64,000 nt of DNA from contig JAENRP010000136.1 of NCBI GenBank assembly GCA_024741835.1, positions 1-64,000 of the forward strand, in the 5' to 3' direction. The stretch is from Diplocarpon mali (Eukaryota > Ascomycota > Leotiomycetes > Helotiales > Drepanopezizaceae). Position 1 is the first letter of the stretch; each line of letters starts with the position of its first letter. The translations under genes were made by a program, and so were the position numbers. Below, in pieces: positions 2,409 through 49,754 of the stretch. Under the pieces are notes generated by a model. The model was not told the origin of the DNA, made no database searches, and saw only the letters and a list, made by a program, of their open reading frames with translations.

Positions 2409-2805
2409 TTAGTATGAAAAGTTTAGCGAACCCTATAATAGCAATCTCAAATAGTAGTAGTTTCGAGTACTTAAGTAATACTAAGCGTAAACTCTAACTG
2501 GAAGTATCTTTTTAAAATCCTTAGAAATCCGAATTTGATAATTCAGCTACTTTAAGATAATAGAACTTTAAAATTTGCTTTAGAATTATCTTTAAAGACC
2601 CCTTTATTCTAAGAACTAATAGGAATTAGCCTAAAGGCTAAGAAGACTTTTATATATAAATCTTATTTTAGAAATTGATCTTTAATTAAATAAACCTTAT
2701 CNATAATTAGTTATAATACTTCTATTAGCTATTTAATATTTATTTAAAATCTTTTAATAAACTTAGATTAAACTTTTAATAGAATTCGAAATTCTACTTT
2801 TAAGC

Positions 2806-2828
2806 CTAGCTTATAAGTAAGAGGATAA
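2806..2828 (+). repeat. 23-bp palindromic repeat, site 1 (gag)
   Basis: It is mutated but aligned over all 23 bp. In frame it reads R/K-P-S-L-Q-V. The counterpart in Gyp15-4 is 44687-44709. Confidence 0.75.
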
Positions 2829-3804
2829 AAAGATATCTTTAAATAACTTAAGACTATTATCTACTTTTTTAATATTAATATTAGAAAATATTAAAAATAA
2901 TAGCAATTTTAAACTTTTTATTAACCCTTTATTTAAATCTTTTCAAATTTGTCTTTATTACTTTAAGATTAACTTAGATTCTAAGTATTCTTTAAGCCCT
3001 TTTGAATTTCGAAGTACTCCTTTTAATAATCAATCTTACAATATTAAAGCTTCCCTTTTACATTTTATAAATCTTATTAACCCAAACGGTTAGTATAAAA
3101 TAATAATAGCCGCATTTAAGGCTATTACTAGCTACTTTCCCCTCCTTAGTTCCTTTAGTACTCCTTACTTTATAAGAGCTAATATTACTAATTTCCTTAA
3201 GTAATATAAGGAAACTTATTATAATTTTAGTATTCTATAAGCAGATATGATTTCTTAGCTCCTTTACTACTATAATTATATAAGTAAAGATATTATTAAA
3301 TCCCTCTTTAAATAGAAAACGTATAATTTATAAAAACTCCTTATTAAAGCTCTTAAGTCTGAATTCTATAAATTTAATAAATAGTAGATTTATAATACTT
3401 TAGCTTTCTTAAAGGAATTTATTCTAATTACTTAGACTCTTAAGGAACTTAAGAACTATTATCAAACTTTTACTTATATATCAAATACCTTAATTAGTTA
3501 GAAAATACTTAGCAAAGTTGAAAGAGGCCGCCTTTTCTTACTTAGATTACCTATTAGCCTTTAAAATAAGATTATTAAGTATTTTAAGATTAATAAGTAA
3601 GACCTTATAACCTTTACCTTATTTAAGGAATTCTTAGCCTTTGCTTTAAAATCAAATCTTAATAAGAGAACTATTAATACTATAGAATAGGAAAAAGCCC
3701 CTACTCCCTTTTATACTAAAGACCTTAAGAGCCTGGTCTAAGAACACTTAAAGGCTTTGGAAGTCATAAAAAAGGCAAAGAAGAACCTAATAATCATACC
3801 TTTT

Positions 3805-3827
3805 ACTCGCAGGCCTAACCTAGGAAT
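3805..3827 (+). repeat. 23-bp palindromic repeat, site 2 (gag)
   Basis: The left arm ACTCGCAGG is intact and the right arm is mutated. In frame it reads F-T-R-R-P-N-L-G-I-R. The counterpart is 45686-45708, which reads C-G-P-D-L-R-V-R. Confidence 0.8.
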
Positions 3828-5720
3828 AAGATCTAACCTTAGAATTAAGGAACTTAAGACTTAATTTGTAAAACTCTAAATCTAAAGCTTAGAAACTAAG
3901 ATTAATAATCTTTTATAAGAAAAATAGCATATTCCCTAATTTAGTAATAAGCAAAACTCAACTACTATAAGCTAACCTAGTAGTTCTTATTACTAAACTC
4001 CTACTTCTTATCATTCGGAATAACTAGCTAATATAAGAACTTAACAGTTGATTAAAAAAGGAGAAATTGATCCTAACTAGCACTTTACTAATATTAATAC
4101 TATAAGGTACTAAGGGAATAGTAATAGAAGAAGACTAACTTGCAACTTTTATAATAATAAGGAACCTAATTACCCTTTATATAAGTATTATAATAATTAT
4201 CCTCTTTTCTATTATTTTATTAATACTAGGGTTATATATATTAATAAGTATAGGATACTTTATATTAAAGATCCTAGGCCAAAAGCTATCCCTATTAAAA
4301 AGTATTAGAATTACTTATAATTATAAACTATTTAAATAATAATATATAGTATAAAATAGGATAAGAATTTAGTCGAACAATAGCGTATTATAAATATAAA
4401 TGCTAAAATTCCAACTTATATATATATAGGTCCAATTAGCAATCTACTTAAAGGAGTTCTTAAGGACCTAGCTTTTAATTAAATAGCTATAGAAGTTAAA
4501 GGCATCTCTATCTTAAGATAGGTTAATAATAATATTTTAACTAATATTAATACTACTTCTATATTTAAGAACCCTTAGAATTCTTAATATCCTTTTAGAT
4601 CTTCTATTCTACTAATACTAATAAAACCAGCTAAAGTCTAGAAATTAGCGTATATAACTTAAGAATCTTAATATAGAGTCCAAATGCTAAAAGATACCTA
4701 ATAGTCTAAAACCGCAATAGATAAAGATAAAGCTAATATAGTAGATAAATTAATTAAAGATATAATAGATAAAGATGGCTTTAAGCTTAAAGATTAAGAA
4801 GTTGAAGTTATTATATAGACCCTTGACCTTAAGCGAAAGAGACAAATGTTAAAATAGGAAAAATTCGTTAATAAATATACTAGTTCAACTATAATAGAGA
4901 AAGCTATAGAGAATATCATAGCTTAGCAAATTAACCTTATATTCAAAGACTTATTTAGTTTAATTAGACGCTTTAATAAAGTGCTAGAAAAGCATATCCT
5001 AATTGCCTTTAAAGATTTAAATAATAATAAGGAAATGGAAATTATAATATAAAAGAACTTTAAAAAGTACTTAGCCTTAATCAAATATCTTTAGATTGCA
5101 GAAAACAAAGGAACCTAAAGGTATTATAATATTATAGTAATAGCCTTAATATCTTAAAATATTAATTGAAATTATTTAGCAATTATAATAAAAAGCCTTA
5201 TTATTATTTATTTAATAGAAGAATCAATTAAAGCAAAGGCTTTAATTAATTATAGTTTAAAAGTTAATATAATAATTAGAAAAGTAGTAGAAATAGCTTA
5301 ATTAATAATTATTAGCCATTAACTCTTTATTTATTCGACTATCTCTAAATTAAAATACAATTTTAATAAATAGGTGAAAAATATAAAGGTTAGAATTAAA
5401 GGGATTATTAATTATACTAACTTTCTAATAATAGAGAATTCTTCAAATGATATTCTTTTAAAAATGCCCTTTATTTTAAAATCTTAGCTAATATTTAACT
5501 ATCCTAGAGATAGTCTTATAAAAGCTAGTCTTTAGAATATAAATCAATCTTTAAAAGGACAAATGGTTATTATAAGAGATATAGCCGAATTCCAAAATAA
5601 GGTTTTAAGAAACGATTAGCTAGCATAAGGGCTAAGCTTAATACTAATAAAGGAAGGCACTTAATAAGAAGTTATAGTAAAAGGAAGGTAAGTTTACTGA
5701 TTTTAGATAATAGCGATTTA

Positions 5721-5743
5721 ACTTATAGTCCTAGATTAGGAAT
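5721..5743 (+). repeat. 23-bp palindromic repeat, site 3 (pol)
   Basis: In frame it reads L-T-Y-S-P-R-L-G-I. The better preserved counterpart at 47602-47624 has ACTCGCAG intact and reads L-T-R-S-L-R-L-R-V. Confidence 0.75.
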
Positions 5744-5882
5744 TAAATTTAGAATTTTGAAAAATGATATAATCGGCGTTTTATTAGATTAATAATTAGG
5801 AAAAAAGAAAAATAAGGTAAAGAAGAGGGTTTGTTTTACAAATTTTAATAATTTACTAATTATTTTAAAAAACCTAAAAACC

Positions 5883-5905
5883 ACTTATAAGCTGGACCTG
5901 CAAGT
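5883..5905 (+). repeat. 23-bp palindromic repeat, site 4 (pol)
   Basis: In frame it reads T-Y-K-L-D-L-Q-V-K. The counterpart is 47765-47787. It lies only 140 bp from site 3, in the spacer between protease and RT. Confidence 0.7.
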
Positions 5906-7849
5906 GAAAAATAATAAAATTACTAATAACATTTCCATTTATATACTTTAAATTAACAACTTAGAAAATCTTTTATTTATTTTTAAAAAGGAAAATTCGG
6001 ACTGTTTTATAAGATTTAATAAAAAAGGAAAGAAGTAAAGAAGCATAGTACTAGCTAATATTCGAACTATATATAAAAGCAAGGCTAATAGAGTATAACT
6101 AATAGATTAAGGAATCTCTAATAGCTTAAAGCCTAAAGGATTAGATGATTAGTTTGAATAAGATAAGAAGCTTTAACTTCTAAAGCTAAGTGGCAAATTT
6201 AATAAGTTTATTATAAGTAGATTTTCTAATAAACCTATTAGATATTAGCTAATAAAAGAACGTTACAATATGCTAAAAATTAGAGATAATTTAATAAAGT
6301 AAGAACGCGAACTACTTTATAAACCCTTAATAAATCAAAAGGACGCTTTAACTTTTGATTAAATAGAACTTGGCCAGATTCGAGAAGAGGTTATGCCTTA
6401 TATTAAGATTAAGATAATACCTTATAAAGCCTAGTAAAAGAAAACATTTAAGGTCTTTAAAGCTCTTTAAGAAAAGGTAATCGAAATATTAAAGGATAGG
6501 CTAAAGCAAGGTATTCTTAAGTTTTATAATAGCCTTTATAAGAATAAATGATTCTTAGTTGCTAAGAAAGAGAAGGGAACTTACAAACTAATAATAGCAG
6601 TAGTAGAGATAAACCAAGTAACTATTAAAAACACTAATATTCCTTTAAATATAAATAAGTTCTTAAATAAATTCGTAGGATTAACCTATAGCTCTCTTAT
6701 TAACTTCTTCTTTAAATATTACCAATTTATTCTTAATATTAAATCAAGAGATATAATAGTAATTCAAACCCCTCTTAAGCTACTTTAAATGATAAGATTA
6801 CCTTAAGAGGCTATAAATTCAATCGCTCAATTTATCTAAGTAATTTATAAGATACTAGTAGATTATATACCTAATATTGCGCTCCCTTATATAAACGATA
6901 TAAGAGTAAAAGGATCAAGATTATTCTATAACTATAAAGAAGTTCTCCTTAGTATATAATAATTTATAATAGAATATATTTAAAACCTAGACTAAGTGCT
7001 TATACAATTCGAAAGGGTAAGAGCAATAGTTAGTCTAAAGTTATAATACTATCTTCTATTAATAGAAATTATTAGTTTTATTACTAATTCTAATAGCCGA
7101 AGTCCTTAAAGGGCTAAAGTACTTAAAATCGATAAATAGAAGAGATATAATAATATAGTAAAAGCTCGCGCATTTATTAGTATTATAGTATACTATCGCA
7201 TTTGGATTAAGGATTTTACTAAAAAGGCAGTACCTATTTACGCCTTATTTCGAAAAGGGGCTAAGTTTTAATAGGAGGAACTTTAAATAAAGGCTATAAA
7301 ACAATTAAAGCAAGCGTTACTTAAAGTGCTATATCTAATTAAAATAGACTATAGAGCCGACGCTAGGCTAATTATACTAATAGTTGATATAAGCTTAATT
7401 AGATAGGGTACTATACTTTAATAAGCTAATAGCTAATAGAAATGATATTTAGCTCACTTTAAAAGCGGTCTTTAGAATCTAATAGAAATAAAATATAATA
7501 CTATTAAATAGGAATGCAAAGGAGCTTTAAAAGCAATAAAAAAGATAAGAAGCGACCTTTATAATACTTACTTCATCTTTAAAATTAATACTAAAGTACT
7601 AATAGAACAACTGAATAAGGCTATAAGCGATCTCCTAAGGGCTTTATTAATAAAATAGATTACTTAAATAAGACTAATAGACTTTGAAGTCAAATACATT
7701 TTAAGAATAAAAAATACTATCGCAGATAGCCTTTTAAAAAGAACTTATCCCTACCCTTCTAATTTAATTAAAGAAGATGAAATAGATATTAATAAGTGGG
7801 TAGAGAATAAAGTTAATAATTTATTAATATATTACCTTAAAGGGACTTG

Positions 7850-7872
7850 ACTCGCAGTCCTAGCCTGCGAGT
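7850..7872 (+). repeat. 23-bp palindromic repeat, site 5 (pol), near-perfect arms
   Basis: ACTCGCAG and CTGCGAGT form perfect 8-bp arms, extended by one base to CCTGCGAGT on the right. It lies between RNase H and integrase. Here the pol frame crosses the repeat in a different phase and gives L-A-V-L-A-C-E instead of the usual T-x-x-P-x-L-x-V. The counterpart is 49732-49754 (mutated). Confidence 0.9.
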
Positions 7873-9284
7873 TAAATAAGAGAATTTTATTACCTAACTA
7901 CTTAGGTAACTTTAAGGAAATCGCAAAATTTTTAATTATATTTAAATAACTAAAGACAATTCCTTTTAAGGATTTTCAAAAGTTTAAAGCTAAAGCTCTA
8001 ATCTATCTAATATAAGGATGGCGATTATTTAAAAGGAGCAATAACTTATTTCTTATATAGCTCTATTTAAATAATAATAAATTGTAAGTTAAGGCTATTT
8101 AAGATATTTATAAAGAGACTGGCTATTAAGGAGCTAAGTCTACTTACTACTAACTTTTAAGAAAATTCTTTTGGAAAGGCTCTTTTAAGGATTATAAAGC
8201 TTTTATAAAGAGTTGCATCCCTTATTAGAAACAAAAACCTGATTATAAGGAGAATCCCTTATTCCTAACCTAACTATTAAGCCTTTTTTATAAAGTCAGT
8301 CTTAATATTATATAAGTATTAATAACCGAAAATAGGATTATATATTTTATTCTAATAAAGGAAGACCTATTAAGATAGCTTAAAGGACGACCTTTAAGAT
8401 TTGCTAACTTTGAATCTATTATAAAGTTCCTTTAGGAAGATGTAGTCTATTATTATAGACTTTTTAATAGACTAACTATTAATAGAGGCCTTGAAAATAA
8501 AAGAGTAATTAAAGCTTTTTTATAAAAATATAGTATTAAATAGGTTCAAATCTTAGCGTATAACTCAAAAGCTAATAGAGTAGTAGAGCGAAGATATTAT
8601 AACATTCTTAATAGGCTATCTAAAGTTACTTATAAAGGATTTAAGAATTAGATAAAATACTTTTATAGAATACTCTTTGCTTATTAAACGACAATTTATA
8701 AACCGACTAAAGTTATACTATTTTTCCTTATTTATAGCAAAGAGGCATAGCTCCCTTTTAAATCCTAATAGCCTATTTAAAGATTATTCAACTATAGTTA
8801 AATTTAGAACCATTCTGATTTGCTAGTAATAAGATACTAATAACTTAAGCTTTAAGATATAGATATTAAGGAAATCATTTTGCAAAAGAAATAATATAAG
8901 GAAAAAGTTAAAAAAGTATAGGCTGCTTTTAAAGTACTTAAAACGCACCCTATTTAAAAAGATAATCTTATCCTAGTCTATAATATTATAAAAAGCATTA
9001 ATATATTAGCAGATACTAAACTTAACTATCGATAGCTTAGCCTATTTAAAGTTAAATCTAAGTAGAAAGAAAAAGGATACTATTCTCTTTAAGAACTTAA
9101 TAGAGTCGATATTAAAAGGACCTTTATAGCTAATCAATTGAAACGCTTTTATTAATGCAATTAGACCTTATTCCCTTTAAAAGACAAATTAGAAATTGAT
9201 ATAACCTCTGAATCTTTTATAAGAACCAATAGTAATATAAGCAATTTTAAACCCTTAAATAAAGACTAAGATTTTTCTAACTTA

Positions 9285-9307
9285 ACTTATAAGCCGGTCT
9301 TATAAGT
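9285..9307 (+). repeat. 23-bp palindromic repeat, site 6 (end of pol)
   Basis: In frame it reads L-T-Y-K-P-V-L-Q-V-K. The counterpart is 51167-51189. Confidence 0.75.
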
Positions 9308-9420
9308 AAAGAATATCAAAATACCTAATTAATTATAACCTTAAGTTATTATTCCTAAAATATCTAAAGAACGCAGATAGGAATACTAAATAATTTCCTA
9401 GCCTATTAATTATCCTACCT

Positions 9421-9701
9421 TCTTATAATTCTTATTTTTACATTTTCGGCAAGGTCGCCTCCTTTATTATTTAAGATATAGATCTTTTAAGATTATTCTA
9501 ATTTCTTGCCTACTTTAACTTAATTTACATTCTTAATATTAACCTTTAATTATAGTATTCCTATTATTTTCCTTAACTAATAAATAAAAAGTCCAATTTC
9601 CTTAATATATATATAGTAAACCTATTATAGCTTATATGCCCTTTTTAATTCTTATATCCTATTAAACTCTCTTATTTATACTTCCTATCTTTTATAAGTA
9701 A
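9421..9701 (+). other. Spacer between pol and ORF2 of Gyp15-2
   Basis: This is about 280 bp of AT-rich, RIP-mutated DNA. Its counterpart is about 51300-51581 in Gyp15-4. I see no convincing reading frame or structural signal. Confidence 0.5.
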
Positions 9702-10547
9702 TATACCTTTAAAGAACTTATAAATGGTTTTATCTACTACGATAGGAATAAATAAATACTAGTTATAAACTTCTTATAGGATAGTAAAGCTATTGCATTA
9801 TTAAAGAGCTTTAAATCGACCTATGCAGCCTTAGGAGATATAGAGTAATAAAAACTCCTTCTAGCTTATGCGAATACTATTAATAACCTTTTAACCTAAG
9901 TGGCCCTTGGAATTCTCTAATTTAATAACTTCTTAATTGAAGAATTAAGACTAAAGGGAATCTTTAAAGAGGAATTCTTAGCTAATGTAAATTAATATAT
10001 TACTTTGGCTAACACTTTTAAAATGGACTAAGATAAAAGAGAAGAATCTATTTAACAATTGGATAATTTAGCTATTAATAAAAGAGGACTCTTATTTTAT
10101 TTACGCTTTTTAATAAATATTAATTCTAATAATAGAAGATAAGTATTATTAAAAATTCTTAAGGAAAATACTCCTACTACTAAAGCTATTCAAATTCTTA
10201 ATTTCTTTATCATTTAAGAAGGAGTAGTAAAATTTTAAAGCAATCGAATTCGCAGTTGCAGATTTATAAGCCTATTTAATATAATACTTATAGCAGCTAA
10301 TAGGATTATAAAAAGATCAAACTAAGCTGCAGATATTACCTTACTTAATAGTACTATTATTAATATGCTAAGGCTTTGCGCTTCTACTTATAGTTTGCTT
10401 ATTTTAAAAGAGAACTGGACTCCTATACTAGGGTTTAGATAAGATTTCTTTAATAATAAAGAAGGGAATTGGTTATTTATAATTAAGCTTGCCTTGAAAT
10501 TCGCTTCTTAGCTTAAAGATATAATAAGTGCTAAACTATATAATTTA

Positions 10548-10570
10548 ACTTGCAGTCTTAGATTAAGAAT
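10548..10570 (+). repeat. 23-bp palindromic repeat, site 7 (ORF2)
   Basis: In frame it reads L-T-C-S-L-R-L-R-I. The counterpart is 52430-52452. Confidence 0.7.
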
Positions 10571-11933
10571 TAAAAGTAAGAATTTTAAAACTAAACCTAA
10601 CCTGCCTTTTATTAAGATAATTCTAGAAACTGCTATTAAACAAACTACCTAAACGCTTAGCGCAGCCTCTTTAGAATTTTTAAAATCTTTAAAGGACTCT
10701 CTTCTAGCTAAACGACCAATTTTAGCTTAACCTTTAAAAAGGATAGATTATTTGATAGCTACCTTAGCTGATTTGCAATTTAAAACCAAAGGATTACGCA
10801 CTTACTTAAACTCCTTCTTTAATAACTTAAAGGAGCTAGTCCTTAACTTCTTTATATTTATATATAACTATTTTAGAAAAAATAATATAAGGGAAGACCT
10901 TATTCCTACTACTTTAAGGATAATTAAAAGAGCTATTAAATAGATTTAATAGCTTATCTTAGATAAGTTCGCCCTTATAAATATTATTTAATTCTTTAAT
11001 AATTATAGAAGTTAAGAGCCTAGTCTCTTAAATGCTAAGTGAGATTATTTTATCTTATAAGAAAGAGAATATAAAGAGGAATCTATTAATTAAGATATTT
11101 GTAATTATAATAATATGACTTAATCGGTTGTTCTTAATCTTAAGCTTAAAGAATAATATAATATTCAAGTATCTTTTATAATAAAAACTCGCTTTTGATA
11201 GTATCTTCTTAGTATAAGAATTAAAGAGAGAAGACTTTGCGACCTTTATATTCGCTCTCTTTCGGTTTACTATAATCTTAATTATAAAGGATTTAATATT
11301 AATAAAACTATTAAATACCTTAAACTTCTTTATATAATAAAAGATATTAATCTTTTTCTAATCTACTTTAATAATTAATTCTTTATCTCTTTAAAGATAT
11401 GCAAATCTAACCTATTAATAATAAAGGCATCTTTAAGTACTGTAAAATTTAAGGCTAATCCTAAAGCCTTAAGGGTATTAAAGCTAATTGAATAGAATAA
11501 TTCCTTCTTTTTAATATTATTAAGTAATAAATAGCAGAAGGAAATAGAAGAGGAAGGGTCAATTATAATGCCTAAACCCTTTAGATACCGCTTCCTAACT
11601 AACAATTTTACTACTAATAATAGTACTTTTATAAGTATATTCCTTTCTATTATAAGATAAGAAGTAGAGATATACCTTTATTACTTCTATCTTATAGATA
11701 ACGCAACCTTTATACCTTCTTATTTTCTTTATAATATGATATTTAGTCTTACTTAATAAGTCCTTTGAATATACTATAGACTCTACCTCTTAGCTATAAT
11801 AGCGAAAAGTAAAAGGGCCTATTAGCTTATCGCTTATCTTAAACCTCTTTAATTAATTGGCCTTAGTCTTTATAATTAAGTTGTTTTAATAAAAAGAGAT
11901 ATAAGTACTATTAATAAAGAAAATCTAATTATT

Positions 11934-11956
11934 ACTTATAGTTCTAAACCGCGAGT
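11934..11956 (+). repeat. 23-bp palindromic repeat, site 8 (ORF2)
   Basis: In frame it reads I-T-Y-S-S-K-P-R-V. The counterpart at 53816-53838 retains the right arm TTGCGAGT. Confidence 0.7.
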
Positions 11957-12818
11957 CAATTTTGCTAATAAGCGAGTCTTAGATTATTAGATCCTATTAA
12001 TCGGATAAGGCCCCGCTTTAGAAAGCCTTAATAAGTAGATCGGCTCTTAGTCGAATATGAAACTTATTCTATTTATAAAGAAGATAAGTCGATAGACTTC
12101 TTAAGCACTCGGTCTAAAATCTCAACTAGCTCGAATAACTATAAAATTAAAGCAAAAGGAGATCTTGCGACCTATTACTAATAATAGCAATCCAATTATA
12201 GTAATAATAAAATAAGGACATCTTTTTAAAATGCTTTTAGACAATTCTTATAGAACTAGTAGTTTTATAGCCTTTTGCAATAATTATATAGCCATCTATA
12301 ATAAGAACACCTTAGAAAATAAGACTTAAATCTCTAATCTTATCTTTTTAGTCTTTACTTTAAAGTAACTTCTAGTACCTTAATAGATTAATATAAGTAG
12401 AACTACTGCACCTTTTAAGGCAGCTTTTCATCTTAAGAACTATAGCAGCCTCTTTAAAGCTATTATTAATCGACGCTCTTAGATAGACCCCTCGGTTATG
12501 ATTGAAGTATAGAAGTTGTTTCTTCTTAATAAAGACGAATTGAAAATCCATCTTATAGAATATAATTAGAAACTCTTTAACGCCCTTATTAATGCTTAAA
12601 CGAATATTATAAATACTAAGTCGCTTCTTTATAGACTTAAGTCTTAAGGATAATGCGATAAAATAAATGTTATCTAAGAGCCTAATGCATTAATTAATAA
12701 AGATATTATTATAAGAAAATTCGGAAAAGAGATAAGCTGTAATACTAGTATAGTACTAGACCCTGATTTAGGAACTAATTCCCTGTTTTTACCTTTAAGT
12801 TTAGAAACGCCAAGACTG

Positions 12819-12841
12819 ACTCGCGAGCCCGGCCTGCGAGT
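12819..12841 (+). repeat. 23-bp palindromic repeat, site 9 (ORF2), near-perfect
   Basis: ACTCGCGAG / CCCGG / CCTGCGAGT. In frame it reads L-T-R-E-P-G-L-R-V-R, the clearest form of the peptide. The counterpart is 54701-54723. Confidence 0.9.
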
Positions 12842-13105
12842 AAGGTTAGACTTGGCTAGCTTTAGCTTATAAAATAGTTCAAATGAACTTCGGCTACTAA
12901 ATCTAAGGGTATTAATAGAAGATCCTTTAAAAGAGGTCCCTAAAGTTGAAAAATCGTTAAAAAGTAAGAACTAACGTAAGAGAAGAAGACTCTAAAGTAA
13001 TAATAGAACTGATAATTAAGTTAAGCAATCTGGAGAATCTAGCCTATTACCCTTAGAGAATACTATTTAAAGAACTTACAAATTCGAGTTGAATCTTTTT
13101 TTTAG

Positions 13106-13623
13106 GATTATCTACTTCTTATATACTAGCACCTTATTATTCTCTATTTATTATTTTATTTTATATATATTCTTTACTCTACTTTATTCTTTATATAATC
13201 TATCTCTTGATTATTTCCTTTATATGCAACTTTCTAACGCTTACCTTTGAAATGTTATCCTTACCTTTAATAATTGTTATTTACCAATAGTAGGTCCTTG
13301 TATATATTATACCCCACTTTTGTTCTTACTTCTAAGCTTATTATACCTACTTTTCCTTTGTATACTAGCGCGATTCCAAACTCTATAAATAAGCCTCTTC
13401 CTGCACTACGATTTTACTTTTTTTACTTTTTCTATAACCCTACCAGACCTATAATACCAGCACTACTACTATTGTCTTTCTATTATCAATCTTTTCTAGT
13501 ATAGGCCTCCTATATTGTTAATCTTTCCTAATTAATCATCTCTTCGTATAGAGCTACCTCCTTGCCAACTAATTTATTATAGTACTACTAAGCTTAAATA
13601 AGAAAGCCATACCTAAGAAGAGT
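13106..13623 (+). other. Spacer between ORF2 and ORF3 of Gyp15-2
   Basis: This is about 520 bp of pyrimidine-rich, AT-rich DNA separating the two paralogous frames. Short hydrophobic open frames occur here (for example near 13274-13504), but they are not kept as open frames with the same ends in Gyp15-4 and reflect T-richness. It may hold the ORF3 promoter or a splice region; no motif was recognised. Confidence 0.5.
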
Positions 13624-14466
13624 ATGTCAGTTGTTGCCTTAGGTAGTAAGTCAATGAATACTGCTAATAATGAACTAATATTAAAGGGTAGATTCTCATA
13701 GGACGGCAAGTCTCTTCGATCATTAGAAGATATTATGACTACTTATAGAATGTTAGGTGAAATAGAATAAAAAGTATTCTTAAATTCCTTTATTAAAGTA
13801 TTAAACTATAGAATTTCTACTATTAAAGAAGGATTTCTAGGATTCGACGATTTTCTTAAGAATGAGCTTAAGACTAAAGGAATCGATTGGGAAAAGTTTT
13901 TATAAGAATATTAAGGGTATGCTAATTCGATTGATTTGTTTTAAAAGAATTGAGATAAGAAAAATGAGTGTATAAAAAGACTGATACAGTTTTCGAGCGG
14001 AATATATAGAACCCTCTTTCAAAGCCACTTTATAAATAATATTACTGCGAATAATGCTCTGCAGGGACTTGGTAAGATTTTTAAGACCTATTAGCTAGTA
14101 GTTAAAGCTATATAGGTGTTAAATTATTTTACCATCTAAGAAGGCATAAAGAAGCTGCAGGGAAATAGTACGCAGAGTAGAAAATTTATTAGATTCTTAA
14201 GTACTATTATATACTCTACTATTCAAACTATAAAGGATAGCCCCGCTTAGTATAATAATCTTATACTCTTTGACCAAACTGTTCTAGATACGCTTAGTTT
14301 ATAATAGTTATAATGCGGTCTATTTATTATAAAAGAAAAGATAATATATCTAGTTGAATATACTATAAACTACTTCGATGATAAAACAAAGAGATAGGAG
14401 TTTATTATACCTGCCGCCTTAAAGCTATTACTACTTGCGGCAGAATTAACAGACGAGCCAGAATTG

Positions 14467-14489
14467 ACTCGCGGGCCTAGCCTATAGGT
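14467..14489 (+). repeat. 23-bp palindromic repeat, site 10 (ORF3)
   Basis: In frame it reads L-T-R-G-P-S-L-stop-V, where the stop replaces Q by RIP. The counterpart is 56350-56372. Confidence 0.85.
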
Positions 14490-14652
14490 AGAATTAGCAT
14501 ATAATAAAGAAGTCTATAAGTATAAGGTGCCTATGATACTAGATATATAAACTGCTAACTATTATAACCTTAAAGCATTAGACTCAGATGTATTTGAATC
14601 ACTATCTTTAGAAATGCCTAGAATACCTTATATACTAGTAGTAAAGAAACTA

Positions 14653-14675
14653 GCTCGCAGGCCTGGCCTACGGGT
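14653..14675 (+). repeat. 23-bp palindromic repeat, site 11 (ORF3)
   Basis: GCTCGCAGG / CCTGG / CCTACGGGT. In frame it reads L-A-R-R-P-G-L-R-V-R. The counterpart at 56527-56549 has the left arm ACTCGCAGG intact. It lies 186 bp after site 10. Confidence 0.88.
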
Positions 14676-15882
14676 TAGAATACGTAATGATATAGACTTA
14701 GAAGATAAGCTAACAGATGAAGTAGATAGCCCTATTACTAATATATTGGAAATTTTTAATAATACTAAGAAGGATATATCCGATATTATATAGACTTTTC
14801 CTAAAGATCTGCAAAAGTTTATTTTAAAATTCTATAAATCTATAATAAAGCGTTTGAAGAAGGAAAACCAAGGAGATGTTTTATTAGTATAAGAGGTAAT
14901 AGCAAGAGCCGTTAAACAAATTATAAAGCTATAATAAGACGAATTTTCTATAGATAATATTATATATTTCTTTATTAAGTATAAGAAATCGAAGGGCGAC
15001 TACTATATCTTTAAAGAAAAGCCAGAAAGTAGTATAATAATTATATTTATAAAGTGCTATAAAGTTTCCTTTAATATTAAGATAATACTTTAATATAGCA
15101 ATAAATTCAAGATTATAATAATACTAGAGATAAAGATATAATTAAGCAAATTTATAATAGGGATATTCGAGGACTTTAGTTTTGAAAAATTTTATACTTT
15201 ATATAAACGACAATATATATAATATTATAAGCTGATAATAGTATCTTTGACTAATAAGCAAGTTTCCTTTAATATATACAAATTTTGCACTACACCCGAC
15301 TTAACTTTGTTCTTATTATACCTTAGAAACTGTGCAATTATGGCTATTAGTAATAGAATGGCTAACTAAATTAAGAAAGATATATTATTAGGTTTCTTTA
15401 AGTTTTAAGTAGTACTTAAGGCCTTTAAATTATTTTATAATATCGCTTAGACCCCTGCTTGGTATAAGACTATATTAATTAAAGACACCCTAATATCGCT
15501 TTATACTAAAGGTTTTTTAAATATGCTTAAGTTATTAAGTTATGCCTTTTTAAGTACTATGCGCACGTATGATTATAATAATCGTAGAAAGAATTCATTT
15601 TTGATATTAGTATAAGAGGAGCTAGAAATATACTAATACTATTTCTAGACCTTAGATAAAAAGCTAAGCCCTCCCTTTGCCTTCCTTTATAATATAACTT
15701 ATAGCTTAATATAGCAGACCTTAAGGATGTACTATAGTCTGTATCTTAGTACTCTATTAACTTATTATAATTCTTTATATAAGCTAGTAGCATATCTTAA
15801 GCTTATATAGTTTATAGGTATTAACTACTATTTGCGAATTATTTCTATTAAGATTAACGCTAATACAAGATTCGTAAGATTA

Positions 15883-15905
15883 ACTCCTAGGCCTAGCTTG
15901 CAGGT
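15883..15905 (+). repeat. 23-bp palindromic repeat, site 12 (ORF3)
   Basis: In frame it reads L-T-P-R-P-S-L-Q-V-N. The counterpart is 57767-57789. Confidence 0.85.
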
Positions 15906-16704
15906 CAATTCTCCTAATAGTAGAACTATTGACTATTATATAATCCTTACTGTTAAATAGTCAATTAGAGAATTTGCTATATAGGAAAAGTCCTATGAGT
16001 TATCTATACTTATATCTTATTGTTTTAAGAACTCTTAATAGATCTTGCTAAATCTAGTATAAAGCGCAGTTTAATAGAAAGAATTAAATATTAAAGATAG
16101 AATAATTCTAAAGGAGTATATTTCTAATAAGACTACTCTATTCTTAGTATTTATAAGATAAGGTACCTTTATTGACCTAGACTCTAATAGAGAACTTAGA
16201 AAGGGTGGTTTTCTTACTATTAGCAATAATTATATAGAAGTTGTTAGTAATGAATCACTTAAGAATAGCGCTGACCTAGAAGAATTTATTATCGATTCTA
16301 TCTGTATAAAGAAACTAAGCATAGTAAGATAAAGTATTACTAAAGAATCCTTAGCCAAGTTTCGTATAATACTTAGTATAATAAAAGGTGGTCTACTATC
16401 AGACGCTCTTATAGGAAGACGATTATAGAATAACTTATTAGTAGTAATAACTATAAAGGATTTGTTTGTAAAAGATATATCTTAGCTAATAGCATATTTA
16501 AAGAAGTACAAATAAGAACTTTTTAAAGATTTTACTAGTACTTAAAAGCTGGTTTAATAACTAGAGCTATAGTTATATAGCAATAAGTCTTAAATAAAGA
16601 CTAAAGATATAGATAATAATATTAAAGCTAATAACCTAATTGATAAGATAATACTTCTTAAGAAGTATAGCACTAAGAAGCCTTATATAAAAACCTCTAA
16701 TATA

Positions 16705-16727
16705 ACTCCCGGGCCTGGTCTGCAACT
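16705..16727 (+). repeat. 23-bp palindromic repeat, site 13 (ORF3)
   Basis: In frame it reads I-T-P-G-P-G-L-Q-L-D. The counterpart is 58579-58601. Confidence 0.82.
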
Positions 16728-17043
16728 TGATCTAGTAAAGGGCAAGGCTAAGGAAGTAGTATCTATAGAATCTCTCGCCTCTCTTTCCTTTATTACTAAC
16801 AATTTTCCTAAGGATAATAACGATAATAATAACGATAATGCTACTATATAAGTCTCTCTTCCTATTAGTAGAAGTCGCTAAAGCATATTAGCATCTGCTT
16901 AAACTACTAAAGCTCCTGCTATACTAAGACCTATCTCATTAGATACTAATAGCGATGCTATAAGAAGAAGTGGTCGTTTGATAAAGAGAGTATTATCTAA
17001 TAATGGTTCTCCCTATCCTTTAAAGAGAACTAAGGAAAACTGA

Positions 17044-17350
17044 TACCTGGGTTGGTTCTATTTTAATTGTTTTTACGTTTTTATAGCTTATTTTTTTATT
17101 TTGCTAGTTTCGTTTTCTGACTCTTAGGCCTGGCCTATAGGTGAAAAGCGTATATAAAAAAAAAAAAAAAACTCTTCTTTTTTTTCTTTTACCTTTGATA
17201 ATAATATAGCCCTAGTTTAGGCCTTTTAATATATTAGTTTTCTTGCACTTAGGGTTTGCTAATAATTGATATGCTATTGCCTTAACTTATATTGTTTTAT
17301 ATTCTTTACTAATAGTAATAGGAGCTACTACTTTTATTATTTAGAATATA
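17044..17350 (+). other. Gyp15-2 3' untranslated region
   Basis: This lies between the ORF3 stop and the 3' LTR. It holds palindromic repeat site 14, a run of 16 A at 17156-17171 followed by a T/C-rich tract, and no reading frame. I see no purine-rich tract immediately before the LTR. Just upstream of it is an imperfect palindrome around AGGAGCTACT (17310-17330). Confidence 0.6.
17120..17142 (+). repeat. 23-bp palindromic repeat, site 14 (3' UTR)
   Basis: This is the only Gyp15 copy outside a reading frame, about 80 bp after the ORF3 stop. The counterpart is 58998-59020. Confidence 0.8.
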
Positions 17351-38144: not shown

Positions 38145-38167
38145 ACTTATAGGCCGGGCCCAGGAGT
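38145..38167 (-). repeat. 23-bp palindromic repeat in GypD pol
   Basis: It aligns over 23 bp with the Gyp15 repeat. On the coding strand its first bases are ACTCCTGGG and the centre is CCCGG. It lies between RNase H and integrase, the same interval as site 5 in Gyp15. Confidence 0.75.
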
Positions 38168-40031
38168 GGAATTGCCTCTAGTAGCAAGTACTTCTATAAA
38201 GAGCTTATCGTTAGGTAAGAGCTACTAGTAGTATAAAGCTCATTTCTTAGCCTTAAGAGGGGTTAGCTCCTAGTCTCAATATAAGAGTATATCAGCCAGC
38301 GTATTCGTTATACTTATTCGGTATATAATAAGAAAGTTAAAGTTAGCGAAGAACTCCGCCTAGCGAGCCTATTAGGCTATTAAGTCCTTAGTTATTATAA
38401 AGTACTTAAGGGCTTTATAATCTATATATATATGCACTATTTTCTAAGCCTTAAGTAGCTCTGCCTTATACTAGTAGAACGATTTAAAAATCGCTAGGAG
38501 CTCCTTATTATAAATAGGGTAATTCAGCTCGGCGTCATTTATAGTCTTCGAGAAGTACCCGATTAAGTGGTAGTTCTTATCTTTCTAAAGTTAAGAGAGT
38601 ACGCTAGTAACTACTCTATTAGAGGCGTCGGTCTTAAGCCTTATCTGCTTCTAAGGGTAATAGTAGCATAAGATCAAGGTCGTTTAAAGGCTTAAGCGCA
38701 GAGCTTCTTAAGCTTCCTTATAAGTATTGTTAAAGTTAAAAGGAACGTTTCTTATAAGAGCTATTAAAGGTCGGCAGATACGATTATAGCCTTTAATAAA
38801 CCTTTAATAGAAGTTATAGAACCCTAGGAAGCTCTATACGCTATATACATTCTTAGTATATTTCTACTCCTAAATGACTAAGACCTTATTAAGGTTTACC
38901 TCAATTTTATAAACTCTAATAATAAACCCTAGGAACTTAGTCTTAATAACCTTAAACTCGCTTTTCTTAATATCTACTTAAAGGCTATAGCGTTAAAGAA
39001 TTCCTAAGATCTTCTTAATATGAATCTTATAGTTAAGGGAGTTTTTTAAGTAGATTAAAATATTATTTAAGTAAGTAGAGTAGAAATCGTTAAGGTAGTT
39101 AAGGAAAATATCATTAATAAACCTTTAAAAGGTAGCAGGCCTATTTATCAGCCCAAATGGCAAGACCTTGTATTTATAAGTCCTATAACGCGTGCGGAAG
39201 GTAGTTAGGTCCTTAGTGTTAGCTAATATGCAGATATAGTAGAAGGCTTATTATATATCGATTTTTATAAAGATATAAGCTTTCGATATATATACTATTA
39301 TCTTATTAATAAGTGGAATCGAATAGGGGTCTTTCTTTATTAGGGCATTCAGTTTCCGATAATCGACGCATAAACATAAGGAGCTATTAGCTTTCCTAAT
39401 AAAGAGGATTAGGGCTACCTAAGGGGAACTCGAAGCTTTGATAAATCCTTTATATAGGTTCTTAAGAATATAGCTCTTAACCTCTAAGAGCTATTCGTCG
39501 GTAAGGCGGCAGAGGGGTTCGATTATTAAGTTATTCTCGCCTATTAGCTCGATTTTATAATCTACCCCTAGCCTAGGTTCCAGCAGTTAATTAAAGGCCT
39601 AGCGATTAAAGACGTTTTTAAACTTAGTATATTAAGGCAAGAGCTTCTAGTCTATTAGCTTATTATTGCTCTTATACTTAGCTTGCAGTGCCGAACTAAG
39701 GCCAAGGGAGCTAATTTCAACTTGCCTAGCCGATTCTCGGCGATTGATCTCTTAATTTAGATTATAAATTAAGCTTATAAATATAAACTCTTTAGGCGCT
39801 AGTTCCTAAGTTTATATAACTCGCCTTACTTTAGTTATAAAGTAGTAGTAAAGGGCACCGATCGCTAAGACTGAGATTAAGCTGATTTAGTAAGCCATTT
39901 TTAAAGGAGCGTTTCTCTTTATTAAAAGAGGGAGCAAGGGGTTTAGTATTCCTAGTAAGGCCTTCTTTATATAATTCAAATCTCTTTTTAAGTCTTTAAA
40001 GAAACTGCTATCCTTAAGTCTATAAGAGGCT

Positions 40032-40144
40032 ACTTGCAGGCTAGGACTAGGAGTGGAATTCAAGTTTGCAGTTTTCACTCGTAAGCTAGGACTAAAAGTA
40101 GGATTCGAGTTTGCAGATTTCACTTGCGGGCTAGGACTAGGAGT
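40032..40144 (-). repeat. Tandem array of three 23-bp palindromic repeats (45-bp period)
   Basis: Repeats at 40032-40054, 40077-40099 and 40122-40144 are spaced exactly 45 bp apart, so 15 residues are tandemly repeated in the GypD frame. On the minus strand they read N-S-T-P-S-P-S-L-Q-V and close variants. The array lies between protease and RT. Confidence 0.9.
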
Positions 40145-41893
40145 AGAATTCAAGTTATTACTTACTAGCACTAAGAGCTAGGCTTAGGCCATTCTTAAGT
40201 CTTTGTCCTTAGCATCTATTATAGCTATTTTACAATCGACGTCTTATTAAGCTATTAAGGGTCTTATTAGCTATAAGAGATCGATTAGTATGCATCGATT
40301 AAAGTAGGAGACAATAGGCATATCCTTAAGCTAAGAGATACTATTTTTCCCCTTTCTATAAGACTATTTAAGGTTATAATGCTTTAGGAACTTCCTACTA
40401 ATTAAAACGTCAGTTGCTCTTAAACTTATAATTAGGAAAGGGAAGTTGATTTATCGCCTATTAATTATAAAGGTAAGTAAGATAGCAAATCGAATAGTTT
40501 CTCCCTTAAGGCTATTATAACCAATAGGGATAATCAGTTTAAGCAGTTTAATAAACTTTACCCTAAGTCTTTAAGAGAGCTAGTATATTAGAGATATTTT
40601 AATAATACCGAAAATATTAGCTCTACTATTAATATAAGTAACTATTTTAATAAATAATTCATTTTAAGCTAATTCTATAGGAATTAAGAATTAGCGGCCG
40701 CCTATTAATAGGCGGGAATCAAAATCCAAGTCTCTTTATAAATTATAACCTATACTATAGTAGGAGTCTTTGCTATAGCTTAGCAGTTTCCTAATAGCAG
40801 GTCGTTTTCCATCTTAACTTTAGCTATTATAAACTCGCCCTACTTCTTTAGCTTTAGGCAATCTGTTATATAATAACTAAGGGCTTTGCAGTTATAGTAA
40901 AGATTAGATAATAGTTTTAAGCTAGTAGACCTTTCTTAATAAGTTGCTAGTAAAAGGGAATAAGTGCAGGGAGCTAAGGAGGTAGCTATAGCAGTAGGTC
41001 TTTATAACTCCCTTTTCAATATGCTAAGGACGCGGTCCTTCAAAGGGGAGAATGCAATAGCAAGGGCGACTTATCAAGTATTATAAGCCTCTTCTTACTT
41101 AATATTATAAGTCTCGCAGTCCGTAATAGCTAAGAACTCATTTAAAGTAGTATAATTATTATTCATTTTATACTTCTCTACTTAAAGGTTATTCTTTAAG
41201 GCTAAGGAGACCTTTTTATAAATGTTATCGAACTAGCAAGACTAATCGATCTTTTTAATTATAGTAAAGGTAACGAACTTAAATCGGAACTTATTATATA
41301 ATAATAAACCTATAGTTAGCTTACTATATTTAAGCTTAGCGGACTAAATATAGTTATAGTTAAAGAACCTTTAATCTAAGACCTTAAGGATATTAATAGT
41401 ATATATAAACTTATTAGTAAAGATAGGATCTATATATTATAAGATTAAGTTTTAAGCTTTACCTATTATATACTTAAAGTAAGTAGTAATCTAGTCCTCT
41501 CTTAAAGTAAAGTTGCTTAAGTACTTTTAAATAAATACCTTTATAGCTATCTTCCAAGCGTTATAGGTAATTTCGCCCTAGTAGTTACTAAAATAGGTTT
41601 AAGGGTACTTGATCTAATAGGGGTTGATAGCTAAGACTAAAGGTCAGATGATTAAAAGGTAGTAGTCTAAGAGAGGCAGTAAGTCGGTAGTAAAGGACCG
41701 AGTATTCTAAAGGCTAGCACTTAAGGAAGAAAGGGCAATAGCATTATTTTAAAAAGCAGCGGCTATAGCAGCGCTAATAAAGTTTGCGATTTCGGCTTAC
41801 TAAGCAGCTAAGAAGAAAGGGGCTGATATAGTAAGAGTAGACGATAGTTCTTCCTTAACTTCAATCGATAGAAAGGGAGTATTCTAAGAATCT

Positions 41894-41916
41894 ACTCGCA
41901 GTCTAGGCCTAAGAGT
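41894..41916 (-). repeat. 23-bp palindromic repeat in GypD gag
   Basis: ACTCGCAG is intact on the plus strand. On the gag strand it reads F-T-L-R-P-R-L-R-V-D. Confidence 0.85.
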
Positions 41917-43756: not shown

Positions 43757-44002
43757 TATAGAGACCTAAGATGGATAGGTCTTATGATATATATTATATA
43801 ATTAGTATAGGACAGTAGGAGGATAAAAGGGCCACCTTCTATATATAGAGATAGCGCGCGTTGCTATAAGTACTAAATATATCCTATACTTGGGACTTAT
43901 TCTTAATATCTTGTCTAAGAGAGCCTGCTTATAGTACTTTCTCCTTTTGTTTTTAGGTCTTCCCTTAGGCCTATTCTTGTATTATCTCCCTTTTATTTTA
44001 TA
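43757..44002 (+). repeat. Gyp15-4 5' LTR
   Basis: 246 bp, starting TATAGAGACC. It includes the short AT palindrome around 43788-43802. Confidence 0.92.
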
Positions 44003-44288
44003 TTAGTAACCTACGCAAGGACCGATTTCTTAAGATTTCTATCCTTATACAACCTTATTAATCTCTTAGTTTGCAAATAAGAGATTAGCCTTTTGAAAAA
44101 TATATCTTTAAAATACTTATAGCATTTTGATTAACTTTAAAAACCTTATCTTTAATCGCTTAATTACTTAGAACTATTGATTTTGTTTAGCAACTATTAA
44201 TAACCTTAGATTTTCCCTTTTCGGCTCTGCTTCGAAAACCCCTATTTTCTTCCTTAACTTTGAGATTTTCGGAATTTTCGGCTTTTTA
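44003..44288 (+). other. Gyp15-4 leader
   Basis: This non-coding leader begins TTAGTAACCTACGCAAGG immediately after the LTR, where the primer-binding site is expected. No tRNA match can be asserted. Confidence 0.6.
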
Positions 44289-44686
44289 ATATAAAAAGTT
44301 TGGCGAATCCTATAATAGCAATCTCAAATAGCAGTAGTTTTAAGTACTTAAGTAATACTAAGCGTAAACTTCAATTAGAGGTATCTCCTTAAAGTCCTTA
44401 GAAATCTGAATCTAATAATTCAATTACTTTAGCTTAATAGAACTCTAAAGATTGCCTTAGAATTGTCTCTAAAGACCCCTTTATTCTAAGGACTAATAGG
44501 AATTAGCCTAAAGGCTAAGAAGAATCTTAGATATAAACCTTATCTTAGAAATTAGCTTTAGATTAAATAAACCTTATCTTATTACAATTAGTTGCAACGC
44601 TTCTATTAGCTATTTAGCATTTAATTAGAATCTCTTAGCAAACTCGGATTAAACTTTTAATAGAATTCGGAATTCTACTCTTAGGC

Positions 44687-44709
44687 CTAGCCTATAAGTA
44701 GGAGGATAA
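44687..44709 (+). repeat. 23-bp palindromic repeat, Gyp15-4 site 1
   Basis: In frame it reads S-T-L-R-P-S-L-stop-V. It pairs with 2806. Confidence 0.8.
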
Positions 44710-45685
44710 AAAGATATCTTTGAATAACTTAAGACTACTACTTACTTTTTTAATATTAACACTTGAAAATATTAAAAATAATAACAATTTTAAACTTTTT
44801 ATTAACCCTTTATTTAAATCTTTTTAAACTTATTTTAATTACTTTAAGATTGACTCGGATTTTAAACGTTCTTTAAGCCCTTTTGAATTTTGAAGTACTC
44901 CTTTTAGCAATCAATCTTATACTATTAAAGCTTCTCCTTTGCCTTCTATAAATTCTATTAACTTAGATAGTTAATATAAAATAATAATAGCCGCATTTAA
45001 GGCTATTACTAATCACTTTCCCCTCCTTAGTTCCTTTAATGCTCTTCACTTTATAAGCGCTAATATTACTAATTTCCTTAAGTAATATAAGGAAACTTAT
45101 TACAATTTGAATATTATATAAGAGGATATAATTTCTCGACTTCCTTACTATTATAATTATATAAGTAAAGATATTATTAAGTCCCTTCTTAAATGGAAAA
45201 CTTATAGTTTATAGGAATTCCTTATCAAGGCCCTTAAATCTGAATTCTGCGAATTTAATAGATAGTAGATTTGCAATACCCTGGCTTTCTTAAAGGAATT
45301 TATTCTAATTACTTATATTCCTAAGGAACTTAAAAACTACTATCGGACTTTTACTTATATATTAAATACCTTAATCAGCTAGAAAATACTTAGCAAAGTT
45401 GAAAGAGGCCGCCTTTTCTTACTTAGATTACCTATTAGCCTTTAAAATAAGATTATTAAGTATTTTAAGATCAATAAGTAAGACCTTATAACCTTTACTT
45501 TATTTAAGGAATTCTCGGCCTTTGCTTTAAAATCAGATCTTAGTAAGAGAACTATTAATATTATAAAGTAGGAAAAAGCCCCTACTCCCTCTTATACTAA
45601 AGACCTTAAGAGCCTAGTCCAAGAATACTTAAAAGCTCTAGAAGTTATAAAGGAGGTAAAGAAGAACCTAGTAGTTATACCTTTC

Positions 45686-45708
45686 ACTTGCGGGCCCGAC
45701 TTAAGAGT
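45686..45708 (+). repeat. 23-bp palindromic repeat, Gyp15-4 site 2
   Basis: In frame it reads F-T-C-G-P-D-L-R-V-R. It pairs with 3805. Confidence 0.82.
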
Positions 45709-47601
45709 AAGATCTAACCTTAGAATTAAGGAACTTAAGACCTAATTTGCAGAACTTTAAATCTAAAGCTTAGAAATTAGAATTAATAATCTCTTATAGG
45801 AAAAATAGCATATTTCCTAGTTTGGTAATAGATAAAACTCGGCTTCTATAAGCCAACTTAATAGTTCCTATTACTAGACTCTTACTTCTTATCATTTGGA
45901 ATAACTAGCTAATATAAGAATATAATAGCTAGTTAAAGAAGGAGGAATTGATCCTAACTAGCACTCTGCTACTATTAATACTATAGGGTACTAAAGAAAC
46001 GGCAATAGAAAATGATTAACTTGCAACTTTTGTAATAATAAAGAACCTAACTATACTTTATATAAATATGATAATAATTGCCCTCTTTTCTTTTGTTTTA
46101 TTAATACTAGGGTCATATATATTAATAAGTATGGGATACTTTACATTAGAGATCCTAGGCTAAATGCTATCCTTATTAAAAAATACTAGAATCATTTATA
46201 GCTATAGACTATTTGAATAAAAATATATAGTATAAAGTAGGATAAGGATTTGGCTAAATGGAAGCGCATTATCGAAATCAACTCTAAGGTCCTAACTTAT
46301 ATATATATAAGTCTAGCTAGCAATCTACCTAAAGGAGTGCTTACTAACTAAACTTCGAACTAGACTGCTATTAAAGTCAGAGGTATCTCTATTTTAAAGT
46401 AGGTTAATAATAATATATTTGTTAATATTAATACTGCTTCTATATTTAGAAACCCTTAAAATACTTAATATCCTTTTAGATCTACTACTCTTTTAATACT
46501 AATAAAACCAGCTAAAGTCCAGAAATTAATACGTATAATTTAGGAATCTTAATATAAAGTTTAAACGCTAAGAGATACTTAACAATCTGGAACTATAGTA
46601 GATAAGGATAAAGCTAATATAGCAAACAAATTAATCAAAGATATAATAGATAAAGATAGCTTTAAGTTTAAAGATTAAGAAGTCGAAGTTATTGCGTAGA
46701 CCCTTAACCTTAAGCGAAAGAGATAGATATTAAAATAGAAGAAATTCGTTAATAAATACGCCAGTTTAATTATAATAGAGAAAGCTATAGAGAATATTAT
46801 AGCTTAGTAAATTAACCTTATATTCAAAGACCTATTTGATTTGATTAGACGCTTTAATAAAGTGCTAAGAAAGTATATCTTAGTTACTTTTAAAGATCTA
46901 AATGATAATAAGGAAATGGAAATTATAATATAAAAGAACTTTAAAAAGCACTTAATCTTAATTAAATGTCTTTAAATTATAAAAGATAAAGGAACCTAAA
47001 GGTACTATAATATTATAGTAATAGCTTTAATATCTTAGAATATTAATCGAAATTGTTTAGTAATTGCAATAAAGAGCCCTATTATTATTTATTTTATAAA
47101 AGAATCAGTTAAAGTAAAGGCTTTGATTAATTATAGTTCAAAAGTTAATACAATAATTAGAAAAGTGGCAAAAATGGCTTAATTGACAATTGTTAGCGAT
47201 TGACTCTTTATTTATTCGACTATCTTTAGATTAAAATACAATTTTAATAAATAGGTGAGAAATATAAAGGTTAGAGTTAGAGGAATCGTTAATTATACTG
47301 ACTTTTTAATAATAGAGAATTCTTTAAATAATATTCTTTTAAGAATGCCTTTTATTTTAAAATCTTAGCTAATATTTAACTATCTTAAAGATAGTCTTAT
47401 AAAAGCTAGTCTTTAAAATATAGATTGATCCTTAGAAGGATAAATAGTTATCGTAGGAGATATAGCCGAATTTTAGAATAAGGTTTTAAGAAATGATTAG
47501 CTAGTATAAGGGCTAGGCTTAATGCTAGTAAAGGAAGGCACTTAGTAAGGAGTTATAGTAAAAGAAAGGTGAGTTTGCCGATTTTGAATAATAATAATTT
47601 G

Positions 47602-49731: not shown

Positions 49732-49754
49732 ACTTATAGTTTTAGCCTATAAAT
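49732..49754 (+). repeat. 23-bp palindromic repeat, Gyp15-4 site 5
   Basis: This is a mutated counterpart of the near-perfect 7850 site. Confidence 0.7.

Follow-up and report, generated by a model that had tools for sequence, protein, structure and literature searches.

The window analysed here, a stretch of 64,000 nucleotides, has an AT-rich composition and contains LTR retrotransposons that are nested and decayed. The 23 bp at 12819–12841, ACTCGCGAGCCCGGCCTGCGAGT, lie in copy 2 of the Gypsy family Gyp15, where a near-palindrome of this kind occupies 14 homologous positions along 15.8 kb, from 2796 to 17120 in copy 2 and from 44677 to 58998 in copy 4. Each copy has no mismatch at 12 of the 14 positions; the exceptions are 9285/51167 (one and one) and 16705/58579 (two and one). 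Our 14 positions include 5721/47602 and 10548/52430 and omit the weak match 6671/48553, and because of these choices the 14 listed in a preliminary description of this DNA may not be the same set. Its counts of 14 in each of the two Gyp15 copies and five in the Gypsy family GypD agree with ours, but the Gyp15-1 and Gyp15-3 gag pieces have two sites each and not one. Three of the five GypD sites in the window form a 45-bp tandem array.

Table 1. Coordinates, strand and reading context of the sites and their carrier elements in the window
Feature	Position	Strand	Context
Reported site	12819..12841	+	Gyp15 copy 2, late ORF2, phase 0, TREPGLRV
Gyp15 copy 2 site	2796..2818	+	ORF1 (gag side), phase 1
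Gyp15 copy 2 site	3805..3827	+	ORF1, phase 0
Gyp15 copy 2 site	5721..5743	+	ORF2, phase 0, decayed
Gyp15 copy 2 site	5883..5905	+	ORF2, phase 0
Gyp15 copy 2 site	7850..7872	+	phase 1, LAVLACE
Gyp15 copy 2 site	9285..9307	+	one mismatch, phase 0
Gyp15 copy 2 site	10548..10570	+	phase 0
Gyp15 copy 2 site	11934..11956	+	phase 0
Gyp15 copy 2 site	14467..14489	+	ORF3, phase 0; retained within fast-diverging stretch
Gyp15 copy 2 site	14653..14675	+	ORF3, phase 0
Gyp15 copy 2 site	15883..15905	+	ORF3, phase 0
Gyp15 copy 2 site	16705..16727	+	ORF3, two mismatches, phase 0, TPGPGLQL
Gyp15 copy 2 site	17120..17142	+	probably 3' untranslated; at or beyond end of last frame
Gyp15 copy 4 sites, 23 bp each	44677, 45686, 47602, 47765, 49732, 51167, 52430	+	
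Gyp15 copy 4 sites (continued, to 59020)	53816, 54701, 56350, 56527, 57757, 58579, 58998	+	
Gyp15-1 gag piece, two sites	454–476 (one mismatch), 1464–1486	-	
Gyp15-3 gag piece, two sites	18021–18043 (one mismatch), 19030–19052	-	
GypD, five sites	38145, 40032, 40077, 40122, 41894 (span 38145..41916)	-	no mismatch
Gyp15 copy 2 ORF1	2700..5400, approximate	+	lowest-stop frame
Gyp15 copy 2 ORF2 (pol)	5500..13300, approximate	+	stop density; RNase H matched in homologous copy 4 part
Gyp15 copy 2 ORF3	13500..17100, approximate	+	stop density; no known domain
Gyp15 copy 4	43757..59525	+	bounded by direct end repeats 43757–44013 and 59269–59525

In Gyp15 copy 4, a domain search recognised RNase H and, only below the cut-off, an integrase zinc-binding H2C2 domain; site 49732, the equivalent of 7850, lies between the RNase H and this below-cut-off match. 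From 52.1 kb on, the copy gave no match at all. In L069, a less decayed copy of GypD, the matches to RT and RNase H pass the cut-off, whereas those to integrase core, SH3 and chromodomain fall short of it; the sites of L069 lie in coding frame, encoding TPSPGPRV, TSGPGPRV and TRRPGLRV. After this GypD, at 6970–7990 of L069, a second Gypsy-like pair of RNase H and H2C2 was found, with no site detected between the two. On the forward strand of Gyp15, the stretch 13600–15600 has diverged by transversion faster than the bulk of the element, with 20–39 per 400-bp bin versus 0–13 in the preceding bins, and the sites at 14467 and 14653 are kept within it. Elsewhere in the window, 20602–26298 and 29290–34986 form an inverted pair of a 5.7-kb stretch, 86% complementary, inside which a leftover Copia-like RT reading frame of 155 aa (21617–22084, reverse strand; named by eye) can be read. 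A run of 55 N occupies 59034–59088, just past the last copy 4 site, and single N letters stand at 1327 and 2702.

In undecayed form, the motif is ACTCSCGGKCCNGGMCCGSGAGT, with an inner core of CGG-N7-CCG. This changes the earlier consensus of two arms around CCTGG or CCTAG. The sites had been said to align over exactly 23 bp, and among the sites compared no indel falls within the 23 bp; the motif itself, however, continues outward with the AT-rich preference N-R-A-W-T-Y. All 76 symmetrised cases from 38 contexts have a purine as the second flanking base, and the preference extends to about 35 bp in total. Outside the sites, two Gyp15 copies differ by 1,781 transitions and 259 transversions, an excess that would be expected of repeat-induced point mutation. 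Hypermutation of whole sites was considered and rejected, as transversions between the two copies are fewer in sites (1/299) than elsewhere (259/14,870), in a comparison of 13 sites that includes the weak 6671 and counts 5721 and 10548 as flank.

The recurrence of the near-palindrome is far above chance. The decay-tolerant motif has 32 exact sites in the window versus a simulated mean of 0.1 (maximum 1 in 20 simulations), 43 sites versus 3.45 at up to one mismatch and 84 versus 36.1 at up to two, and a transition-tolerant scan finds 34 sites scoring at least 27 where 10 Markov simulations average 0.0. In the genome, searched over 49.37 Mb in 676 contigs, the first pattern with up to three mismatches has 5,725 forward and 5,690 reverse matches, compared with three and five for the reversed-pattern control; since the site is almost a palindrome, most matches are counted on both strands. 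There are 1,885 exact matches to ACTCSYRRKYYNRRMYYRSRAGT (reversed-pattern control 0). The undecayed motif is matched 208 times with up to one mismatch, and at least 50 of these matches are exact (control 0). The simulations and reversed-pattern controls together rule out chance and base composition as the source of the repeat.

The carriers are the Gypsy families Gyp15 and GypD and two Copia families. In the first, Copia-like family (L045/L037), whose label rests on Pfam matches below the curated cut-off plus spacing, three tandem sites precede the RT and two precede the protease region. Strong RVT_2 matches support the label of the second Copia family (L110/L112), which carries a ten-site array with further sites at its 3' end. 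Arrays range from three to ten sites, and one Copia stretch holds 12 copies, two of these with one mismatch. Some contexts are flanked by poly-T and are probably untranslated; L111, which surrounds one of them, gave no Pfam match. The exact undecayed pattern has no match in the viral and prokaryote collections searched.

Host DNA looks different. In gene-rich samples, twenty 10-kb pieces of large contigs with a GC of 0.44–0.57 (196 kb without masked letters, the masked stretches lying in the two samples L015 and L023), the decay-tolerant motif has no exact match, and its nine one-mismatch matches are at the chance level of 10.0, so that an occurrence in host genes is not borne out in this sample. 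With an earlier score, the same samples gave four weak matches, none with both the ACT and AGT ends. Among the exact matches listed by contig, which reach C8, none is on C2, C3 or C5 (1.47 Mb). No report of this motif appeared in the literature searches. Repeats make up 34.15% of the genome in one strain of Diplocarpon coronariae, according to a genome paper whose main text lacks the words palindrom and gypsy (PMC11527701).

What is conserved in the sites is DNA as well as peptide. In T-[RP]-G-P-G-P-R-V, the peptide encoded in the predominant phase, four-fold degeneracy applies to the third position of each of the first seven codons, and selection on the peptide alone would leave positions 3, 6, 9, 12, 15, 18 and 21 all free. 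In 38 contexts, four-fold positions 3, 6, 18 and 21 have no transversion, whereas four-fold positions 9, 12 and 15 and the non-synonymous positions 5 and 19 do. Having been picked by pattern or score, the 38 contexts are biased towards conserved sites; they include tandem neighbours and are represented by one analyst-chosen copy each. Of the 18 non-variable positions, 16 are without transversion, the other two being position 14 with three and position 22 with two among the 38. The variable positions, 5/19, 9/15 and the centre, are mirror images of each other, and a mirror-image arrangement of fixed and variable positions is the pattern that a dimeric reader of DNA would leave. The preliminary description had named two outcomes that would tell against it, a count no higher than expected and a peptide whose codons vary freely with no conservation of the palindrome; both were checked, and neither was seen.

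Divergence at 14467 and 14653 provides better evidence for this constraint than the polymorphism sets do. By pair, the flanks of these two sites have 0–27 transversions per 231–240 bases and the fixed positions 0 or 1 of 18; in the related family L041, flank transversions amount to 68/431 and those at fixed positions to 0/18, with L041, L004 and L005 in this comparison having been found by pattern. A set not selected on the motif, and for that reason the fair test, was fetched by flank from the Copia-like family (21 copies of three sites, a column being counted if a transversion occurs in at least two copies). Its transversion-polymorphic columns are 0/54 at fixed positions, 4/15 at variable positions, 3/347 in the outer flank and 5/56 in the spacers, which carry codon-sized indels while the sites carry none. 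The difference between fixed positions and flanks is not significant (P = 0.15) because the flanks vary little. The variable positions, in turn, are more polymorphic than the flanks (P = 6e-5), an excess that simple binding-site constraint does not explain. At Gyp15 3805, 24 copies fetched by flank have 0/226 flank columns with at least two transversions, position 9 is G/T at 13:11, and one copy deviates at position 22. At 3805, at 7850 and in the Copia arrays, transversion polymorphism is higher at variable positions than in the flanks, a pattern that resembles allele exchange among sites. A pooled table (0/414) is conditioned on motif matches and was left out of the evidence. As copies of a site share descent, all P values here are rough.

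The two arms of the palindrome are not equivalent. Among 50 undecayed sites listed, 44 combine ACTCC with ACTCG, six have two ACTCG arms and none has two ACTCC arms, where 25 mixed sites would be expected, and 0 of 20,000 permutations was as extreme. By context, the classes are 29 mixed, eight with two ACTCG and none with two ACTCC (n = 37). Since ACTCC regularly faces ACTCG, the site has an orientation.

Nearly all sites had been described as read in one phase, and the bias is strong without being a rule. In Gyp15, 11 of 13 coding positions are in phase 0 and two, 2796 and 7850, in phase 1, with frames taken from stop counts, coordinates modulo three and 17120 left out. Over all coding contexts, one phase accounts for 16 of 18 (P = 1.7e-6 if one third is expected); the 18 comprise 13 from Gyp15, two from GypD, two from the first Copia-like family and one from the second Copia family, as assigned by the analyst, with most doubt attaching to the frame of the second Copia array. 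Named protein relatives suggest that the genome belongs to a fungus close to the apple-blotch pathogen. In uninterrupted D. coronariae proteins the site peptide is T[RP]GPGPRV and near variants. GypD-like polyproteins of that species have TPGPGPRA and TPGPGPRV (962 aa) or TPGPGPRV and TRGPGPRV (952 aa), and four ORF3-like proteins have TRGPGPRV, SRGPGPRV, TPGPGSRV and TPGPGP[RQ]L, one of them without the third site. In pairwise comparisons of three ORF3 proteins, motif residues are identical at 92/96 versus 360/480 for the flanks. The phase bias and this conservation in ORF3 show that the peptide matters too. The peptide pattern is present in three of 35 proteins compared, all three from D. 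coronariae; in other fungi the linker between RNase H and IN is too variable for a clean gap to be visible.

Sites spread locally by tandem duplication. The units are 39, 45, 48 or 54 bp long, all multiples of three, and within Gyp15 about 80 bp are common to two positions. About 15 bp of upstream flank are common to one 3' context and the Copia linker array. The best 14 of 2,380 flank comparisons (scored with no null) are mostly within-family, and clearly different families share at most 18 of 30 bases, from which it seems that the bare site moves. As the repeated origin of some 18 near-fixed positions by point mutation is implausible, the sequences suggest that bare sites were likely copied between families, whether by insertion, conversion or template switching. 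Short repeats flanking the site on both sides have no uniform length but are slightly in excess, with a mean of 1.70 versus 1.20 with shuffled partners in 37 contexts (P = 0.022) and 1.63 versus 1.08 in 24 contexts without tandem neighbours (P = 0.036). No other positive sign of insertion was seen; the excess is too weak to demonstrate a target-site duplication, such as accompanies the terminal inverted repeats of a MITE, and too large to dismiss one. In a search for empty copies at one context, 40 of 308 candidates were scored and all 40 were without net gap; the query included the site, which biases the search towards filled copies. A second DNA query gave length differences that are mostly multiples of three and lie within spacers, not missing sites.

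These traces bear on an explanation close to that of the preliminary description, a selfish unit of 23 to 37 bp, akin to Rickettsia palindromic elements, that would insert into retrotransposons, either in DNA form or through template switching when the elements are reverse-transcribed, with their linkers and untranslated ends as the tolerated targets. Such a unit would account for the same near-fixed positions in at least 30 contexts and at least four families, for which point mutation hardly suffices, for the dissimilar flanks between families and the short upstream flank shared by a 3' context and a Copia linker, and for the occurrence of sites in both orientations relative to coding strands. 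The slight excess of flank repeats points the same way, and exchange between sites could be the source of the surplus of alleles seen at variable positions. However, neutral inserts should decay along with their flanks, yet the fixed positions are kept; a mobile unit should also strike host DNA, where matches are at chance; and no empty site appeared among the 40 candidates of the one, filled-biased search. We consider this explanation rather unlikely. A mini-repeat within several selfish families, conserved as DNA, is what we see; regular self-folding in the eight sites tested and a presence in host genes in the 196 kb sampled are not.

Function at the peptide level, with T-[RP]-G-P-G-P-R-V repeated in polyproteins as a linker or protease cleavage signal, is less probable still. 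It would fit the phase bias, the strictness of the peptide in uninterrupted proteins and the interdomain location of sites where domains can be placed, several of them by matches below the cut-off, but it leaves four of seven four-fold positions fixed while non-synonymous positions 5 and 19 vary, and it does not cover the sites in phase 1 or in poly-T-flanked, probably non-coding contexts. A pure peptide repeat as the sole cause was rejected on the fixed four-fold positions. A hairpin in RNA or single-strand DNA, serving as a packaging, dimerisation or cruciform signal, could be read from the near-perfect inverted repeat and from RNA folding, in which four of eight sites tested have z below −1.8. 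The other four fold no better than shuffles at that threshold, and the preferred mismatch at 5/19 (44 of 50 undecayed sites) speaks against a hairpin, which would prefer matching arms; positions 9 and 15 are also mismatched in 23 of the 50. We regard a hairpin as very improbable. An origin by chance or base composition, or by mere descent of a single family of elements, has a negligible probability: most copies do belong to high-copy families, so the counts are not independent, but controls of 0 to 5 stand against thousands of matches, and the motif is common to Gypsy and Copia.

We prefer a reading of the repeat as an oriented docking site for a putative trans-acting protein, and place it just on the probable side of even. 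A dimeric protein would bind the sites to the benefit of their carrier elements. Its most likely role would be that of an activator or anti-silencing factor, for which each element must offer many sites. It might be encoded by a lead family, with ORF3 of Gyp15 as a candidate, or by the host. The carriers have their many copies in polyprotein linkers and probably non-coding ends; the sites multiply locally by tandem duplication of the in-frame units of 39, 45, 48 and 54 bp, and between families they were probably copied. Phase-0 linkers may tolerate the site best because it then encodes the flexible T-[RP]-G-P-G-P-R-V.

ORF3 owes its candidacy as the trans-acting protein solely to its place as the additional gene in the family richest in sites. 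One search returned four homologues (P0036–P0039), uninterrupted at 1,071 to 1,157 aa, all annotated in D. coronariae and 83–85% identical to the first. ORF3 has no relative in Pfam or PDB past a useful threshold (best E values of 0.024, below the cut-off, and 0.29), and no DNA-binding domain was found in these searches.

Several known systems share features with the repeat. Fungal Zn(II)2Cys6 transcription factors recognise inverted CGG/CCG triplets at fixed spacing. The CGG-N7-CCG core is of this kind, which gives only a lead to a putative factor; beyond the triplets, the site has its outer ACTC/GAGT arms. Rickettsia palindromic elements are about 150 bp and occur in frame in unrelated metabolic genes of a bacterium (PMC10969869). 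They resemble the present repeat in being palindromic and in frame within proteins. The site here, however, is 23 bp (about 35 bp when extended), folds with z below −1.8 in four of the eight sites tested and lies in retrotransposons as far as tested, where its insertion is putative.

Further parallels come from plant transposons. Sireviruses, plant Copia elements, carry 8 to 32 repeated motifs per element, each a dyad palindrome of 10 to 20 bp with a CGG-CCG core in nearly all; a cis-regulatory role is proposed for them, nearly all lie in LTRs or in the linker before ENV, they belong to one plant genus, and the motif differs between elements (PMC2829016). The undecayed motif shares the dyad symmetry and CGG-CCG core, and at least eight copies per element are found here as well (14 in Gyp15 and 12 in one Copia stretch). 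In contrast to those motifs, it spans at least 23 bp, is one motif in Gypsy and Copia and has a preferred arm asymmetry; nor is it confined to LTRs or a non-coding linker, with 13 of 14 Gyp15 positions in reading frames. VANDAL elements are DNA transposons. In Arabidopsis, they carry a dense motif, YAGTATTAY, that has grown by tandem repeats and is bound by the element-encoded anti-silencing protein VANC, with binding shown; the motif is not palindromic and the bound probes were non-coding (PMC5735166). High density and tandem-repeat growth are matched by the 39- to 54-bp arrays of this study, whereas the present site is a near-palindrome, with ORF3 as a candidate partner only.

On the docking-site reading, a further and more tentative proposal, which we find possible but rather doubtful, is that unrelated Gypsy and Copia families of one fungus have exchanged, or converged on, a single DNA address that has an orientation and that even their proteins incorporate. 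This address would recruit a single protein acting in trans, perhaps the product of ORF3 in the 15.8-kb Gyp15, and other families would ride along, forming a shared commons of anti-silencing or activation. Repeated cis-motifs are already known within single transposon groups. If the proposal is true, one motif present in two retrotransposon superfamilies and constrained at the nucleotide level within coding sequence would mean that these families share a trans-acting factor. It would then be directly testable if transposons work together or if some exploit the machinery that others use for anti-silencing or expression. The present case also shows that a putative binding motif can be recovered by reading repeat-induced decay backwards.
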